DNA of 21,604 bases from a virus: positions 1,014 through 22,617 of the IMG/VR virus record IMGVR_UViG_3300030116_002437. One strand, written 5' to 3'. Shown here one piece after another: positions 1-21,604 of this stretch. The notes under the pieces are model-generated. The model did no database searches. It saw nothing but the letters and a program-made list of their open reading frames with translations, and was not told the origin of the DNA. Both the position numbers and the translations under genes were made by a program. The stretch's first letter is position 1. Each line of letters starts with the position of its first letter.

Positions 1-714
1 TTGAGAACAGCAGATGTTTTAGAATATGCAGACTTCAAAGATCAATTTGCAATGCAAATCGGTAAGTATAATCTTAATATTCTTGAGGATATTAAAAATT
101 TATATTTATATGATTTTGGTATTTTCTTAGAGCTTATGCCTGACGAAGAGGAGAAAGCTATGTTAGAAGCAAATATACAAATGGCTCTTTCCAAAAATGA
201 TATAAACTTAGAAGATGCTTTGGACATAAGAGAGATCCATAATTTAAAACAAGCAAATCAATTACTAAAACTAAAGCGTAAACAGAAACAACAAGCTGAA
301 CAGGAGCAAGCAATGCAAATGCAAGCTATGCAAGCTGAACAGCAACAACAAAATATTATGGCTCAGGCTCAAGCTGAACAACAGAAAAAAATGATGGAAA
401 TGGAAAATGCTATGCAGTTAAAACAAGCTGAAATAGCTATGGATATTGAAAAAATGAATAATGAAGCTCAATTAAAATCTATGTTGATGGAGAAGGAGTT
501 TGCATTTAATATGCAGTTAAAGGGTATTGAACAATCACAAATTGATCAAAGGGAGGCTGCAAAAGAAAAAGGTAAAGCTGATAGAATTACTATGGCTAAC
601 ACACAACAATCAAGATTAATAGAACAACGTAAAAGAAACTTACCTCCAATAACTTTTGAGTCTAATGAAGATTCTTTGGATGGTTTTGATTTAGCTGAAT
701 TTGATCCACGGTAA
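1..714 (+). CDS. Portal protein, C-terminal part (5' end outside window)
   Basis: This is the last 237 residues of a probable portal protein, the dodecameric ring at the head vertex through which DNA enters and leaves. The frame is open at base 1, so the TTG there is probably not the real start. Residues about 28-95 (DFGIFLELMPDEEEK, then a region ending KLKRKQK) resemble what I recall of the portal C-terminal region in crAss-like and marine Bacteroidetes phages. Residues about 95-150 are extremely rich in Gln, Met and Ala and should form a long coiled coil. The protein ends in an acidic tail, SLDGFDLAEFDPR. The phosphatase gene starts 2 bases after the TAA stop, so the two are probably cotranslated. 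The position just upstream of scaffold and capsid genes supports the call. Recognition is from family memory; the diagnostic N-terminal portal core is not in the window. Confidence 0.72.
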   Translation: MRTADVLEYADFKDQFAMQIGKYNLNILEDIKNLYLYDFGIFLELMPDEEEKAMLEANIQMALSKNDINLEDALDIREIHNLKQANQLLKLKRKQKQQAEQEQAMQMQAMQAEQQQQNIMAQAQAEQQKKMMEMENAMQLKQAEIAMDIEKMNNEAQLKSMLMEKEFAFNMQLKGIEQSQIDQREAAKEKGKADRITMANTQQSRLIEQRKRNLPPITFESNEDSLDGFDLAEFDPR

Positions 715-716
715 AA

Positions 717-1253
717 ATGTTTGACGACTTTAACATTTCTAAATATAAAGATGTTAGTTATCCTTCTGATTTTTCCCTCAAAGCTTTAGGAGAAATTAAA
801 AAGCTTCAGCGCACACCTGTAGATTCAAACTTTGCAAACAAATATGATAATGTTTACAAAACATTTAAAAATTTGTTTAACAATAGAACCAGAAAGTTTC
901 CAGATAAGTTAGTGCAAGATTTAATTACAGAATCTCAACCAGTGATTTTAAAAATCAAAGACTATCACAATCGAAAGAGACCAAACGAATTAGCTAAAGT
1001 ATACAATATAGATTTGTCTTATCATGATATGAAAAGCGCAAAAACTCCTGCGTTTCCTTCAGGACATTCGGCACAATCTATGTTAGTGGCTTTAGTGTTA
1101 ACCGACTTATATCCAGAAATGGAAAAAGAATTAATGCAAGCTGCGCAAAATATTTCTAAAAGTAGAATACTTGCAAGAGTGCATTATGAATCCGATAAAA
1201 TTGTCGGAGAAAAACTTGGAAAAAGCTTATTTAATCATTTAAAAACCGCTTAA
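717..1253 (+). CDS. PAP2-family (acid phosphatase type) phosphatase
   Basis: This 178-residue protein carries the full three-part PAP2 signature: K81-x6-R88-P89 (KDYHNRKRP), P114-S-G-H117 (FPSGHSAQS) and S149-R150-x5-H156-x3-D160 (SRILARVHYESD). In this family the second-motif His assists catalysis, the third-motif His attacks phosphate to form a phosphohistidine intermediate, and the Lys and Arg residues hold the phosphate. Members hydrolyse phosphomonoesters or lipid pyrophosphates. I see no signal peptide and no clear membrane span, so it looks like a soluble enzyme of the bacterial acid phosphatase type, and the substrate cannot be told. Residues 1-75 are a charged helical region. The gene starts 2 bases after the portal stop and precedes the promoter of the scaffold gene, so it is transcribed with the portal. 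A phosphatase inside a head-assembly gene block is unusual. All catalytic residues are present, so it is probably active. Confidence 0.88.
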   Translation: MFDDFNISKYKDVSYPSDFSLKALGEIKKLQRTPVDSNFANKYDNVYKTFKNLFNNRTRKFPDKLVQDLITESQPVILKIKDYHNRKRPNELAKVYNIDLSYHDMKSAKTPAFPSGHSAQSMLVALVLTDLYPEMEKELMQAAQNISKSRILARVHYESDKIVGEKLGKSLFNHLKTA

Positions 1254-1299: not shown

Positions 1300-2442
1300 A
1301 TGGAAATAAAAGTAAAAGAAGTGGATGGCAACACTCAAAAATCAAAAGCCGAAATAGAAGCTCAATTATTAGAAAAACATAATAAAGAGCAAGAAGAGGA
1401 AACTCAACCTGAAAAAGTAGAAGAGGTTGAAGAAACGAAATCTCAGCAAGAAGAAGCTGAGCCGCAGACTGAAGAGCCTGCTGAAGAAAAAACTCCCTCG
1501 TCAGAGTTAAATGACGAACACGTTCTTTCTTATATTAATGAAAGATATAACAAAGAAATAAATTCAGTTGATGAATTGTTTGCTACGAAAGAAGCTAATG
1601 AAGAATTACCTGAAGATGTTAAGTTATATTTTGATTATAAAAAAGAGACAGGCCGTAGCATTGAGGACTTTGCTAAATTGCAAAAAGACTATGGTGCTAT
1701 GGACGATGATTCTGTTTTAGCTGACTATTATGGTATACAAGAGGAAGGTCTTGATGCTATTGATATTCAAGATATTATGGAGGACAAATTCGGATTCAAT
1801 GAAGAAGAAGATGAACCCAAAGATATTAAGAAGAAAAAGTTAGCTAAGAAAAGAGAACTTGCAAAAGCGAGGAAATTTTTTAACGAACAGAAAGATAAGT
1901 ATAAAGTCCCTCTTGAGTCAAGTGGGGGTGGATTATCTGAAGATCAAGAAAAAGACCTTAATGCTTACAAGAATTATATTAAGGAATCGGATTCTCAAAA
2001 AGAGCGCCAAGCTAAGGCTTATGATTATTTTAAAAAGCGTACAGGTGAAGTATTCAACAATGAGTTCAAAGGTTTTGAGTTCAATGTATCTGACGATAAA
2101 AAAATTAATTATAAACCAGGCACTGCTGAAGAATTAAAAAGCAAACAATCAGATGTTAACAAATGGTTAGGTTCATTTTTAACAGAAGAAGGTTTGATTG
2201 GTGATGCAAAAGCTTTTCATAAAGCTATGTCTGTTGCCATGAATCCTGAAAAGTTTGCAAAGTTTTTTTACGAGCAGGGTGTTGCTGCAACGGTAGACAA
2301 TGTAGCAAAAAAGTCTAAGAATATCAATATGGATGTTCGTAGAGCCCCGCAATTAAGTACAAAAAATAGTTTAAAAATAAAAGCGATTGGCGATACTTCG
2401 AGCGGAAGAGGACTTAAAATTAGAAGTATTAAAAAAGTTTAA
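1300..2442 (+). CDS. Probable capsid scaffolding protein
   Basis: This 380-residue, highly charged protein lies directly upstream of the major capsid gene, the usual place for a scaffolding protein. Scaffolds guide capsid assembly and then leave or are degraded. Residues about 10-70 are a low-complexity Glu/Gln/Lys stretch, likely disordered or coiled coil. Residues about 72-150 include YFDYKKETGRSIEDF, a segment I recall from related marine phage proteins at this position. Residues about 165-215 are Lys-rich helices, and the last 40 residues are basic (IKAIGDTSSGRGLKIRS), which fits the capsid-binding basic tails of known scaffolds. There is no signal peptide or membrane segment. The start ATG at 1300 sits 17 bases after a promoter box and has no Shine-Dalgarno sequence. 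The role is inferred from position and composition; it could instead be an internal head protein. Confidence 0.62.
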   Translation: MEIKVKEVDGNTQKSKAEIEAQLLEKHNKEQEEETQPEKVEEVEETKSQQEEAEPQTEEPAEEKTPSSELNDEHVLSYINERYNKEINSVDELFATKEANEELPEDVKLYFDYKKETGRSIEDFAKLQKDYGAMDDDSVLADYYGIQEEGLDAIDIQDIMEDKFGFNEEEDEPKDIKKKKLAKKRELAKARKFFNEQKDKYKVPLESSGGGLSEDQEKDLNAYKNYIKESDSQKERQAKAYDYFKKRTGEVFNNEFKGFEFNVSDDKKINYKPGTAEELKSKQSDVNKWLGSFLTEEGLIGDAKAFHKAMSVAMNPEKFAKFFYEQGVAATVDNVAKKSKNINMDVRRAPQLSTKNSLKIKAIGDTSSGRGLKIRSIKKV

Positions 2443-2461
2443 CAAATTAAAATTTTAAATT

Positions 2462-3937
2462 ATGGCAGTAAATATTAGCCCTGGCTTCGATTTACAACCT
2501 TCAGCTCAACAGGTTCCTGTTGAAACGAATTATATCAAAGATTTTGATTTCTTGAATCAGTATCTACCAGATACTTACGAGAAAGAATTTGAAAGATATG
2601 GTAATAGAAGCATTAGTTCATTCCTACGTATGGTAGGAGCAGAAATGCCTTCTAACTCTGACCTTATTAAATGGGCAGAGCAAGGAAGATTGCATATTAA
2701 ATATAAAGCGTGTACATCAGCAGCTGCTGCAGGTGTAGACTCTGGTGCAGTTTGGACAATTCCTAACAACCTTACAAACTTCAATCCTGCGTTAGCTAAC
2801 CCTAACACATCTAAAGATGCGAAGAATGTATTGAGAGTAGGACAAACTGTATTCATCTCGGATAACACTCCTGGTTCTAACCTTACAAACAAAGCGATTG
2901 TAACGTCTGGACCTACAAATGCTAATCCTAACACATTTACAGTTGCTTATTATGAAGCGGCTGGTCAGGCTGTTGCAGCAGGTGTTGCTTGTGACGTATT
3001 TATCTACGGTTCTGAATTTGCAAAAGGAACTGAAGGTATGGTTGGATCATTAGATTCTGATGATTTATTTTTTGATAATAAACCAATTATCATTAAAGAT
3101 AAATATTCAGTATCTGGTTCTGATATGGCTCAAATTGGTTGGGTTGAAGTAAGCGGAGAAGATGGTGTAAGTGGTTACTTATGGTATCTAAAGTCTGAGC
3201 ATGATACAAGATTAAGATTTGAGGATTACATGGAAACAGCAATGATTGAAGCTGTTCCAGCTGAAGCAGCTTCTGGTGCAGGAGACTTCTTACAAGGAAC
3301 TGGTGCTGGTGCATCTGTTGCTGGATTAAGTGGTTCTAAAGGTGTATTCTTTGAAGTAGGAAACAGAGGTAATGTATATGGTGGTGGAAACCCAACATCA
3401 TTAGCAGACTTTGATTCTATTATTCAAAGATTAGACAAGCAAGGAGCTATCGAAGAAAACGTAATCTTTGTAAATAGACAATTCTCATTTGATATTGACG
3501 ATATGTTATCAACACAAAACTCTTACGGAGGTGGTGGTACATCTTATGGTCTATTTGATAATGACGAAGAAATGGCTTTAAATCTTGGATTCTCTGGATT
3601 TAGAAGAGGTTATGACTTCTATAAGTCTGATTGGAAGTATCTAAATGATCCTACAATGAGAGGTGGATTAGTAGCAGGAGCAATCAATGGTCTATTAGTA
3701 CCAGCAGGTTCAACTTCTGTTTACGATCAAATCTTAGGTAAAAACGCTAAGAGACCTTTCTTACACGTAAGATATAGAGCTTCAGAAGCTGAAGATAGAA
3801 GATATAAAACTTGGATCACTGGTTCTGCTGGTGGAGCAAGAACTTCATCTTTAGACGCGATGGAAGTTAATTTCTTAACTGAAAGAGCAGTTTGTGTATT
3901 AGGCGCAAACAACTTCTTCTTATTCCAAAGTGCATAA
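2462..3937 (+). CDS. Major capsid protein
   Basis: This 491-residue protein is the probable major capsid protein, the subunit of the icosahedral head and presumably of HK97 fold. The N-terminal segment, residues about 24-82 (with DFDFLNQYLPDTYE, GNRSISSFLRMVGAEMP and WAEQGRLHI), resembles major capsid proteins of crAss-like and marine Bacteroidetes phages as I remember them. Residues about 85-185 form a separate Ala/Asn/Thr-rich, strand-forming insertion (VGQTVFISDNTPGS and later DVFIYGSEFAKGTEGM), possibly a surface domain. The C-terminal half has the Gly-rich strands common in capsid proteins. The gene follows the scaffold by 19 bases, has an A/T-rich leader without a Shine-Dalgarno sequence, and is followed by a hairpin terminator, as expected for a strongly expressed virion gene. 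The HK97 fold is inferred, not visible from sequence alone. Confidence 0.85.
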   Translation: MAVNISPGFDLQPSAQQVPVETNYIKDFDFLNQYLPDTYEKEFERYGNRSISSFLRMVGAEMPSNSDLIKWAEQGRLHIKYKACTSAAAAGVDSGAVWTIPNNLTNFNPALANPNTSKDAKNVLRVGQTVFISDNTPGSNLTNKAIVTSGPTNANPNTFTVAYYEAAGQAVAAGVACDVFIYGSEFAKGTEGMVGSLDSDDLFFDNKPIIIKDKYSVSGSDMAQIGWVEVSGEDGVSGYLWYLKSEHDTRLRFEDYMETAMIEAVPAEAASGAGDFLQGTGAGASVAGLSGSKGVFFEVGNRGNVYGGGNPTSLADFDSIIQRLDKQGAIEENVIFVNRQFSFDIDDMLSTQNSYGGGGTSYGLFDNDEEMALNLGFSGFRRGYDFYKSDWKYLNDPTMRGGLVAGAINGLLVPAGSTSVYDQILGKNAKRPFLHVRYRASEAEDRRYKTWITGSAGGARTSSLDAMEVNFLTERAVCVLGANNFFLFQSA

Positions 3938-3955
3938 GAAGTAAAAACTAATATT

Positions 3956-3987
3956 AGGGGAGTTACATTACTCCCCTGATATTTTTT
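3956..3987 (+). terminator. Rho-independent terminator after capsid gene
   Basis: AGGGGAGT (3956-3963) pairs perfectly with ACTCCCCT (3970-3977) around the six-base loop TACATT. A T-rich tract ending in six T follows at 3980-3987. It lies 19 bases after the capsid stop codon and should end or weaken the scaffold-capsid transcript. Confidence 0.85.
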
Positions 3988-17824: not shown

Positions 17825-20800
17825 ATGAATGAGATTCAATTAAAAATATTAGAAGACTTATTTGCTATGGTTCCAGAGGGAACCTTTAGAGATGTAGAAG
17901 AGCTTCAAGAATTTATAGAAGATGAGGGGACTGAAGATTTGTTTGAGATGCTACCAGAAGGTGTGTTTGAAAGCGAAGAACAGTTTGGGGAGTTTCTAAC
18001 ACCCTTAAAAAAAAAAGATTTTTCTGGAGAGGGTCCTCAACAGCCTGTGGATTCGGCTACACAAACTCCTGCAGAAGAGACTCCTTCGCCGCAAGGAGCT
18101 GGTTCTTTGGGTTCACCAAATAGAAGTGTAAACCGTTTAAACCCTGCTTCTCTTAATCAATCACTTGTACAACAACCCTTACCCGATAAACCTGTCGGTA
18201 CTAAGTTTGGTGCTAACGTAGATGTTGGTGAGAAGAATACTTGGCTTGAAGAAATGCTGGGTAAAAATACAGTTACAGATTTCTTTGGTGATATGTATAG
18301 GGCAGGAGCTCAAGGTCTTGGTCAAGGTGCTACCATAGATGATGCTCGAAGATTATTTGTTTCGGGTAGTGAAACTTCAGATGCAGATGTAGAACAATAC
18401 ATTGCTGCTGTTAAGAACATGGACAACTATGGTATGTCTGACGAAATGAAATCTTTCAATAGAATTTATGAAGATAATGGTGGAGGAGTTTTAGGTTTTA
18501 TGTTCGGTGTAGCTCAAAATCCTTCAGTCATTGGTCAGTTATTTGTATCCTCAGTTGCATCAATGGTTAATCCTGAAGTGTTAGGAGGGGCGGCAGGTGG
18601 TGCTGCATTAGGCGCGACAGTTGCAGGAGGAACAGGTGCAATAGCGGGTTCTATAGGTGGACCAATAGGAAGTGCTATAGCAGGTTCTGTAGGTGCATTA
18701 GGAGGTGGTATAAACGGTGCCATCTTAGGAGCAAGTGCTACACTTGAAACAGGTTTGGCTTTTACTGAGTTTATGAAAGAAGAAGTTGACCGTGCTGGAT
18801 TTAAATTTGACAAAGATGGTGTAAGAAAAATATTAAGCAACCCTACTGCTATGCAATCTATAAGAAACAAAGCCATGGCAAGAGGTCTTGTTATAGGTAC
18901 TATAGATGCGTTTACAAGGGGTGTTGCAGGTAAGGTAGGGGGTAGTACTATAAAGGCTGCAAAGGCCGCGGATAGAGCTATAACAAAAGGAATGAAAGCG
19001 CGAGCTGCTTTAAAGGCTGCAGGTATTGAAGCTGTTGGTGGAGCAAGTGGTGAAGCTACCGCAAGAGCAGTTACGGGTCAAGAAATGGATGTAGCTGAGA
19101 TTGGATTTGAAGGTATAACAGGACAAGCTTCTTCTGTATTATCAGTACCCGCTGCAGTAAGCGGCATGAGCTTAACAGATATAGGTAATAACATGGTAGG
19201 TAAAGGTAAAAACTTTTTTAAACCACCAAGCTATGGGTATCTGACAAAGAAAGGTACTAAAATGTTAATGAGTAAGCAAGATGTTGAGGCTGCTATTGAT
19301 ACCATGACAGACCAAGAAATAATAGATTCACAATTTGTTATTGAAAATGACACAGCTCTTGAAGAAAAATATACTAAAAGAAGACAAGAAGCAAACTTGA
19401 ATCAGCAAACACCTGATAACTTAAAAGGAGAAAGAAGAAAGAAATACATTGAGCTACTTCAAGAAAGAGATAATATGGAGAATCCAGATTCTCCAGAAAA
19501 CAAAGAGCGAATAAAACAAATAAATGAAGAGCTTGATGCTATTGTAAAAGAAGCAGAAACAGATGTTGGAGAAACTGTAAAGCTACCAGATGGTTTAGAA
19601 AGATATTTTTCTGTAACACAGTTAGAAGCTATACAAGCATTACAAGAAGAGGGTGTAGAAAAACCTACTGATGAACAGGTTAAAAACAAACAAAAAGAAT
19701 TACTTAAATTAGCAATAGAAGCAGCTAAAAAAACTGCAGCTGAAGTAGATAGGTTTAAGAATGTAAAAGATTTAGATGATGAAGAAGCTAAAGAACAAGC
19801 TAAAGACCAGCTAATATCTGAAGGTATACTTGAACCAACCGAACAACAAATAAACGAAAGAGCCAATGCCATTCAAGAGTCAAGCGCAACGCAGGTGGAT
19901 GTACAAGAATCTACCCCAGATAGCCCAGAAGTGGGAGAAGGAGACGCCCCAGGGGTCGTTACCCAAGAGGGTGAAACCCAAAACCAAGGTGTTGACAAGC
20001 CTATTGAGACGCAAACGCAAGAGGAAATAAGTGTAAACGTAGCACCATTTTTTGAAACTTCAATAGAGTCTACAACCGAAGCAGGTGGTTTAAGAAAGTC
20101 GCCACAATATCAAGAGTATAAACAATCACTTCAAAATATTGCAGATGATTTAGGAGTAGAGATTGAAATTGAAGAGTCAGTAGGCGGTTACGTAAATGAT
20201 GCGGGTACCAAAATTAGAGAGGTAAGTAACGTTGTAAAATTAAAACAAGCAACACTGGAACAAGCCTCACAGTATGCAGCTCTTACAGCTGCATTAGCTC
20301 CAGAGGTACAAGAGTCTTCCATTGCTGCTGAGTACACTACGGACGGTGCAGAAAATCATAATGGTAATGAAATTACTATTAAAGTTTCTGATAGTGAAGG
20401 CACATTTCAAGCCCTGCAAGAAGCAGGTATTGATGAATACACTTTGTCAGAAACAAATAATTTATTAACTTTGTTGGACATTTTTGATTTTAGTGACCCA
20501 GACAAGGATGCTAAACTTGAAAAATTAATAGACATATTAGACGAAAAAAATATTACTTATGAAGTCTCAGATAAAAAAGCAATCAACTCAAGATTTATTG
20601 ACAAGAAGAGCAGGCAACAGATTCTTTCAGATGGTAGACAAAGCGCCATACAACAACAACAAGAAGGGTCAAGCCTTTATAAGAAAATCATCTCAGCGAT
20701 AAATCGCGACGCACAGAAGCAAGGTATATCCCCGAATGAATATATAGGTAAACCCTCAGAGCCAGCCACACCTGAAGTTACAGCTGATACAGATAGAGTT

Positions 20801-21604
20801 CAAAAGATTATAGATGATATAGTCAAAAAAACTGAACAAAGAGAACAGACTCGTGACGATGGTGGTAAAACCAAAAAGAAAAGAAGAGCTGCAAAAAAAC
20901 AAACTCTTCTTGATAATACTATTAGTTATCTTCAAAATTCTAAATTATATCAACAGCTTGATGATATATCAAGAGAAAGATTAATAAACGAACTAAATAA
21001 AAGATTTGGTTTTAAAATTAAAAAAGCAGCAATACCTTCTTTTGTAAAACCAAAAGATAAAAAGGTAGTAGTTAATGAAAGAGTTGCTTTAAAGGACCAA
21101 ATAAAATTAGAAGCAAAAGCAGCAAGAGAATCAGCAGCTGCTTATAAAAAGTCTATGAAAAACATAGCTGCTTTAATCAGCAGCTTCGGAAAAAATCTTG
21201 GTAAGATTTCACAATCTAAAGTAAAAGCTATTACAAAAAGATTTGCGAATGTAAATCTTAATAATAAAAAATCAGTAGATAGCTTCCTTACATTTGTAGA
21301 TAATGTATTTACTAAACAAGATTATGTGCAGCGTTTAAACACTGCGAAGAGTCAAGCTAAAAAAGCTAAGAAGCAAGTAGGCGGAGCAAAGACTGGTGTA
21401 CTACCAGCTGATTTAAAAGCTGCATTAAAGACAGTGTTCAGTATAAATCCTGCACTAATACCAGAACCTTTATTAGATTCTTTTATAGAACTTACATCTG
21501 AGTATGGCTCAGGTAAAAAAGTTCCTTCATTTAAGAAAGCTCAAGAAACTTTACCAAAAGCTTTAGAAATAATTAATGGTGTACAAGAAAATATAAACGA
21601 AGAT
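17825..21604 (+). CDS. Giant internal virion / ejection protein, 3' end outside window
   Basis: The frame is open for 1260 codons from the ATG at 17825 to the window end. Residues 12-31 and 39-58 are two copies of a motif of the form LFxMxPEGxFxxxEExxEF. Residues about 67-125 are a Pro/Gln/Ser-rich linker. Residues about 220-305 form a long hydrophobic Gly/Ala stretch with glycine-zipper spacing (VNPEVLGGAAGGAALGATV, then GAIAGSIGGPIGSAIAGSV), typical of proteins that insert in or cross membranes. After about residue 420 it is largely Lys/Glu/Gln helices with acidic linkers, and a Lys-Arg patch lies near 1018 (GGKTKKKRRAAKKQ). No lytic transglycosylase or other enzyme motif is visible in the part present, unlike T7 gp16. 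Position and layout suggest a head-packaged protein that forms the DNA channel across the envelope. Catalytic domains could lie beyond the window. Confidence 0.68.
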   Translation, partial: MNEIQLKILEDLFAMVPEGTFRDVEELQEFIEDEGTEDLFEMLPEGVFESEEQFGEFLTPLKKKDFSGEGPQQPVDSATQTPAEETPSPQGAGSLGSPNRSVNRLNPASLNQSLVQQPLPDKPVGTKFGANVDVGEKNTWLEEMLGKNTVTDFFGDMYRAGAQGLGQGATIDDARRLFVSGSETSDADVEQYIAAVKNMDNYGMSDEMKSFNRIYEDNGGGVLGFMFGVAQNPSVIGQLFVSSVASMVNPEVLGGAAGGAALGATVAGGTGAIAGSIGGPIGSAIAGSVGALGGGINGAILGASATLETGLAFTEFMKEEVDRAGFKFDKDGVRKILSNPTAMQSIRNKAMARGLVIGTIDAFTRGVAGKVGGSTIKAAKAADRAITKGMKARAALKAAGIEAVGGASGEATARAVTGQEMDVAEIGFEGITGQASSVLSVPAAVSGMSLTDIGNNMVGKGKNFFKPPSYGYLTKKGTKMLMSKQDVEAAIDTMTDQEIIDSQFVIENDTALEEKYTKRRQEANLNQQTPDNLKGERRKKYIELLQERDNMENPDSPENKERIKQINEELDAIVKEAETDVGETVKLPDGLERYFSVTQLEAIQALQEEGVEKPTDEQVKNKQKELLKLAIEAAKKTAAEVDRFKNVKDLDDEEAKEQAKDQLISEGILEPTEQQINERANAIQESSATQVDVQESTPDSPEVGEGDAPGVVTQEGETQNQGVDKPIETQTQEEISVNVAPFFETSIESTTEAGGLRKSPQYQEYKQSLQNIADDLGVEIEIEESVGGYVNDAGTKIREVSNVVKLKQATLEQASQYAALTAALAPEVQESSIAAEYTTDGAENHNGNEITIKVSDSEGTFQALQEAGIDEYTLSETNNLLTLLDIFDFSDPDKDAKLEKLIDILDEKNITYEVSDKKAINSRFIDKKSRQQILSDGRQSAIQQQQEGSSLYKKIISAINRDAQKQGISPNEYIGKPSEPATPEVTADTDRVQKIIDDIVKKTEQREQTRDDGGKTKKKRRAAKKQTLLDNTISYLQNSKLYQQLDDISRERLINELNKRFGFKIKKAAIPSFVKPKDKKVVVNERVALKDQIKLEAKAARESAAAYKKSMKNIAALISSFGKNLGKISQSKVKAITKRFANVNLNNKKSVDSFLTFVDNVFTKQDYVQRLNTAKSQAKKAKKQVGGAKTGVLPADLKAALKTVFSINPALIPEPLLDSFIELTSEYGSGKKVPSFKKAQETLPKALEIINGVQENINED
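17858..17998 (+). repeat. Tandem PEGxF motif repeat, two copies
   Basis: This encodes LFAMVPEGTFRDVEE (residues 12-26) and LFEMLPEGVFESEEQ (residues 39-53), each followed by an (L/G)xEF ending. The period is 27 residues. It sits at the extreme N-terminus of the giant ejection protein, a place suited to a docking or packaging signal. The function is inferred. Confidence 0.65.
18484..18741 (+). other. Glycine-zipper membrane-type segment
   Basis: Codons about 220-305 of the giant protein contain almost only small and hydrophobic residues, with repeated GxxxG-like and GG spacing (GGAAGGAALGA, GSIGGPIGSAIAG). The segment is long enough for several membrane crossings. It is the best physical hint in the window for membrane insertion during DNA ejection. 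Confidence 0.6.

Follow-up and report, generated by a model that had tools for sequence, protein, structure and literature searches.

A Class A-Like PAP2 Phosphatase Gene, Predicted to Encode a Soluble Protein, at an Exchange Site Beside the Portal Gene of Uncultured Phages

An intact gene for a PAP2-type phosphatase was found between the portal gene and a probable scaffold gene in the window, the 21,604-nucleotide stretch of viral DNA analyzed here (bases 1014–22617 of a 22,617-base IMG/VR fragment). We propose, at about even confidence, that it encodes a soluble, signal-less phosphatase of the PhoN type, carried as swappable accessory cargo by marine flavobacterial podoviruses near the Pervagoviridae. 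The enzyme would be expressed late, remain in the cytoplasm and, most tentatively of all, act on soluble phosphomonoesters.

The PAP2 Gene and Its Genomic Context

The PAP2 gene (717..1253, + strand) was an intact open reading frame of 178 codons with an ATG start, encoding a 178 aa protein with a predicted pI of 9.46. It began 2 bases after the portal stop codon (712–714), as the first-pass annotation had stated, and 46 bases separated its end from the next gene. The three PAP2 motifs were complete: K81-DYHNRK-R88-P89 (K-x6-R-P; 957..983, +), P114-S-G-H117 (1056..1067, +), and S149-R-ILARV-H156-YES-D160 (S-R-x5-H-x3-D; 1161..1196, +), the last containing the nucleophile-type His156. The full motif set did not arise in any of 200,000 shuffles of the protein's residues. 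The Pfam PAP2 profile PF01569 matched at 40.9 bits (E = 2e-10; gathering cut-off 27.2), so the earlier claim of a complete PAP2 gene with every catalytic residue was borne out and the family placement withstood a profile search. The PHROGs search returned no match for the protein.

Kyte-Doolittle hydropathy, the only measure applied here, revealed no segment hydrophobic enough for a membrane span or a signal peptide, which agreed with the earlier description. The highest 19-residue mean was 0.87, in the PSGH helix, and the highest 12-residue mean within residues 1–35 was 0.34. Across the family, the highest 19-residue value was 0.88, which indicated that there are no transmembrane helices around the active site.

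Upstream, the C-terminal part of the portal gene (1..714, +) matched phrog_6547 ("portal protein"; E = 7e-23). The sole match of the downstream gene (1300..2442, +) was phrog_16786 (unknown function). Its counterparts in relatives are annotated as "structural protein," and its place before the major capsid protein gene (2462..3937, +; phrog_13704) suggested that it encodes the scaffold. Promoter-like sites in the block occurred at chance level, and the terminator scan detected none on the + strand between portal and scaffold. Directly 3′ of the capsid gene, a strong hairpin with a T tract resembled a terminator (3950–3983). A very long ORF (17825–21604; 1260 codons here) ran off the end of the window; it probably encodes a large virion protein, and its homolog in genome record G002 comprised 2191 aa.

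The capsid protein of the window shared 63% identity with its counterpart in an uncultured spring-water phage (MW202828), 51% with that in Maribacter phage Panino, 44–45% with those in Flavobacterium Elemovirus, and 38% with those in Cellulophaga phages Calle and phi38:1. Calle is a member of the Pervagoviridae (PMC8776804). This kinship of the capsid sequence to flavobacterial phages suggests that the host is a flavobacterium. The head-gene order of the window was also found in Calle (Callevirus, Pervagoviridae), Elemovirus, Panino, and the uncultured Caudoviricetes sp. ctfjg026, with capsids 38–63% identical to that of the window. However, the portal gene of these phages was followed directly by the scaffold-like gene, and no PAP2 was present in the records searched.

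Predicted Fold and Relation to Class A Acid Phosphatases

An AlphaFold2 model of the window protein, built on 52 relatives, had a mean pLDDT of 95.9 and a pTM of 0.92. In comparisons with Foldseek and VIA-align, it displayed the PAP2 helical fold (Z 7–17.5 against PAP2 enzymes overall). A comparison with class A acid phosphatases had been suggested in the first-pass annotation, and these enzymes were the top solved folds over the whole model (residues 1–178): PhoN 2a96 ranked first (Z 17.5, 171 residues, 2.6 Å), and P. aeruginosa 7f17 and E. blattae 1eoi reached Z 17.2 and 17.1. All 13 top-ranked structure matches were class A or acid phosphatases, while membrane PAP2 enzymes and vanadium haloperoxidases scored Z ~14 and lower. 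A profile search against PDB sequences ranked the enzymes alike (PhoN, E = 2e-9).

The class A enzymes (PhoN of Salmonella, 2a96/2akc; E. blattae, 1d2t/1eoi; P. aeruginosa, 7f17), which matched the fold at Z 15–17.5, have in common with the window protein all catalytic residues, a similar helix order, and solubility, predicted in the case of the window protein. However, the latter is ~20% identical to them, strongly basic, shorter (178 aa), phage-borne, and without a signal peptide. It reads PAFPSGHS and does not carry G-S-Y-P-S-G-H-T, which we take to be the class A signature (PROSITE PS01157). A signal peptide directs the secretion of class A enzymes into the periplasm, and the hydropathy profile of the window protein contained no hydrophobic N-terminal segment. 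The NCBIfam PhoC equivalog model gave 27.3 bits against a cut-off of 430, a score that marks distance and not missing homology. Because the signal peptide and GSYPSGHT are both missing, the window protein is built like the class A enzymes but is not filed among them, and the substrate range of PhoN is not simply transferable to it.

The window protein shares the profile and the three motifs with the PAP2 superfamily (PF01569). Compared with that superfamily at large, it represents a phage subfamily, predicted to be soluble, with an extra invariant Y83-H84-x-R86 in motif 1. Its nearest database entry, BFVD A0A1B1IV46 (UniProt, viral, 176 aa; TM-score 0.94, 42% identity), clearly belonged to the same family.

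Conservation and Patchy Presence in the Portal–Scaffold Slot

IMG/VR scans gave 13 encoding stretches with the single protein and 130 with an alignment, 80 of which were kept. All 80 kept loci had the portal gene upstream and/or a scaffold-like gene downstream of PAP2, and the gene thus occupied the same position in many uncultured relatives. The pooled scans comprised 121 full-length locus copies (some of them one contig fetched twice) and 69 distinct proteins. The full motif set K-x6-RP / PSGH / SR-x5-H-x3-D was kept in every one of the 121 copies, and dN/dS was 0.035–0.28 (14 pairs), which indicated purifying selection. The PAP2 start abutted or overlapped the portal stop in most relatives, and the start codon and the portal stop shared one base in 57 of the 121 full-length copies; this arrangement suggests that translation of the two genes may be coupled. 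IMGVR_UViG_3300030101_004148 (G010) contained two different head blocks with a PAP2 copy in each (L033, L041). Chimeric or concatenated assembly is the probable cause, since the record was 105 kb in size compared with ~60–65 kb in its relatives.

The major capsid protein was used as a vertical marker for the presence or absence of PAP2, and the capsid-protein scan gave 67 close-relative loci in which the sequence covered both portal and capsid. PAP2 was absent from 59 of these loci and present in eight, one of which (L134) carried a frameshifted copy. In the PAP2-less loci, the gene following the portal was either the scaffold-like gene or another short ORF that preceded it. No PAP2 was found elsewhere in the whole available sequence of 14 PAP2-less records, several of which were fragments, and PF01569 matched none of four cultured-relative or complete records. 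On the capsid tree, with L134 scored as lacking PAP2, its presence needed eight changes, at least five of which were forced by well-supported branches. PAP2 therefore did not accompany the portal-scaffold-capsid block wherever that block was present, either in the close-relative loci or in the cultured relatives. The first-pass annotation had regarded absence or decay in close relatives as evidence against its proposal. Absence was observed in most of these loci, and the copy in L134 was frameshifted; the full-length copies have intact motifs and are under purifying selection.

The slot of some relatives contained small Lys/Arg-rich ORFs instead of or beside PAP2 (L003 4087–4374, L024 2861–3190, L140 6449–6772, L143 951–1328, L171 3981–4352, and L204 6476–6823). 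These ORFs belonged to more than one family, and the two tested, those of L003 and L143, had no Pfam or PHROG match.

Exchange of the PAP2 Gene

The PAP2 of the window grouped with those of L003, L006, and L256 (88% identity), while its capsid protein was nearest to that of L053 (96%). For both the scaffold-like protein and the C-terminus of the portal, L008 was nearest. When the PAP2 grouping was imposed as a constraint, the capsid, scaffold, and portal data each rejected it (AU p = 0.0003, 0.0007, and 0.003, respectively); these p-values are indicative, as the L003/L006/L256 group was named after the PAP2 tree was seen. The trees indicated that the head block is a mosaic and that related phages, here the window and a sister lineage, exchanged the PAP2 gene. 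The position of PAP2 next to the portal gene marks a site of insertion and exchange and is not indicative of a head function.

A Second Location and the Wider Family

The DNA pattern Y-H-x-R-x-R-P-x24-P-S-G-H was present in at least 120 IMG/VR stretches, including known slot members. Among the matches listed, PAP2 copies 42–49% identical were found outside the slot in the same phage lineage, the terminase and portal of their carriers being 67 and ~49% identical to those of G002. This second location was a late-type block between GroEL and terminase, ~7 kb away from the slot, where PAP2 adjoined an endolysin gene (phrog_894, Peptidase M15) and small Lys-rich ORFs. In L319 and L359, second-location loci with portal and scaffold in view, there was no PAP2 between these two genes.

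A third set among the matches listed consisted of proteins of 229–237 aa, 30–40% identical over partial lengths, which belonged to other, apparently marine phages and were flanked by DUF6356, DNA polymerase, or glycosyltransferase genes. In L277, L294, L349, L365, L370, L375, and L297, PAP2 overlapped with the end of a gene of the DUF6356 type (assigned by profile match in L277, the one locus tested) and was usually located 5′ of a DNA polymerase gene, forming a second recurrent neighborhood. A few further matches to the pattern (L287, L314, L315, and L346) may be bacterial DNA. Only K81, Y83, H84, R86, R88, P89, PSGH, P133, R150, H156, S159, and D160 were invariant in 26 diverse phage and bacterial sequences, a set that corresponds to the catalytic residues plus the Y-H-x-R element.

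Charge and Co-occurring Genes

The PAP2 proteins of the slot had pI values of 8.8–10.0 (mean 9.55) and a charge of about +9, and the second-location forms had pI values of 8.9–9.7. The larger relatives in other, more distant phages ranged from 5.6 to 7.1, and the median for G002 proteins of >100 aa was 6.0. The slot proteins were more basic than 94% of the proteins of >100 aa of one near-full-length member. Judged from composition, which is weak evidence when taken alone, such a strong positive charge could reflect DNA contact or packaging into the head.

Gene content was compared between five PAP2-bearing and four PAP2-less near-full-length records, and no co-occurring gene pointed to a substrate. 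Apart from PAP2, nothing but small ORFs was restricted to the bearers; most of these ORFs were basic, and they occurred in four of the five. A protein of 370–424 aa with a signal-peptide-like start was encoded in all five PAP2-bearing genomes and in one of the four PAP2-less genomes (G002 2187–3461, locus L214; L302 10126–11232; L353 789–1907). The one copy tested had no Pfam or PHROG match, and the protein might be an outer-membrane protein. A small secreted protein, thioredoxin-like by eye, adjoined it and also occurred in one PAP2-less genome.

Possible Function

The roles of the catalytic residues of PAP2 enzymes are known from the family. In the window protein, His156 would take the phosphate with the assistance of His117 and Asp160, and Lys81, Arg88, and Arg150 would hold it. 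Synthesis of the protein would be late and coupled to that of the portal; the protein would stay in the cytoplasm, where it would strip phosphate from soluble phosphomonoesters, e.g., nucleotides or sugar phosphates, in late infection. Against this proposal, dephosphorylation of nucleotides late in infection lacks an obvious benefit for the phage, and the positive charge fits a DNA-binding or head-located protein equally well.

The latter point leads to a possible but clearly less probable explanation, in which the basic protein enters the head along with the DNA during assembly, is injected into the next host, and acts there early, e.g., on defense nucleotides or host metabolites. The putative co-translation with the portal gene, the high pI, and the small basic ORFs in the slot and at the second location are consistent with such virion cargo. 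However, at the second location PAP2 is not among the head genes, no signal for packaging is known, and the basic pI by itself says little. We consider it unlikely that PAP2 forms a phage-specific basic cytoplasmic family that is head-packaged, swappable with other basic cargo, and injected against a host metabolite or defense signal. A structural role in the head, with the enzyme fold serving for binding only, is highly improbable. The gene lay between portal and scaffold in every locus of the first scans, and a head-assembly function had been hinted at in the first-pass annotation, but the hint did not hold: most relatives have an otherwise intact head block without PAP2, sister phages hold the gene elsewhere, and a purely structural protein would not need the catalytic residues that are all kept. 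Head assembly was rejected as a candidate on the presence/absence pattern and the second location, and such a role is unlikely.

Among the other enzymatic readings, it is doubtful that the protein serves phosphate acquisition, releasing phosphate from organic phosphates of the host to supply phage DNA synthesis where the water is poor in phosphate. As a group, class A acid phosphatases act on a broad range of phosphomonoesters, and the members came from uncultured, apparently marine contigs with patchy presence. However, external organic phosphate is out of reach for an enzyme without a signal peptide, dephosphorylating the cell's own nucleotides brings zero net gain, and no phosphate-stress genes were noticed nearby. 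It is very unlikely that the protein works in the envelope, with undecaprenyl pyrophosphate, phosphatidic acid, or lipid A as its substrate. BcrC, PgpB, and LpxE are PAP2 proteins that do so, and LpxE and PgpB matched the fold at lower scores. Membrane-lipid and C55-PP substrates, an option in the first-pass annotation, are nevertheless disfavored, since the protein has no membrane segment and its fold is nearest to the soluble class A enzymes, which outscored all membrane PAP2 enzymes; the NCBIfam undecaprenyl-diphosphatase models gave 13–15 bits against cut-offs of 229–250. Least probable is an activity like that of vanadium haloperoxidases, which share the active site and fold and matched the model at Z 11–14, but they are two to three times longer than the window protein, while the class A phosphatases are of similar size and scored higher.

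The gene product gp045 of phi38:1 is annotated as a cytosolic 5′-nucleotidase (PMC13288928). Replacement of PAP2 by such an enzyme in PAP2-less relatives was considered and rejected, as NT5C (PF06941) matched none of 28 records. A known defense or anti-defense family was also considered, and PADLOC gave no match.

Novelty and Implications

No full-length relative was found among 50,697 phage records. The tblastn search of cultured phages gave eight matches, all partial and at most 37% identical, several of them in bacterial-looking records. No close copy was found in a host genome, the top cellular matches being 23–43% identical over partial lengths. A single mention of a phage PAP2 or class A acid phosphatase was found in the literature (PMC9469726). 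The mycobacteriophage phosphoesterase gp48 is a metallo-enzyme (PMC12287305) and hence only a loose analogy. The first-pass remark that no standard phosphatase was known at this position was thus consistent with our search, which found no described phage counterpart.

In uncultured marine flavophages, these PAP2 proteins represent a conserved enzyme family without an entry in PHROGs, and they identify the portal–scaffold junction as a slot where accessory genes are exchanged. One class A-like phosphatase, predicted to be soluble, connects several marine phage groups that are unrelated to one another. Should it be active, it would be an intracellular phage phosphatase, unlike the periplasmic PhoN or the membrane PAP2 enzymes.
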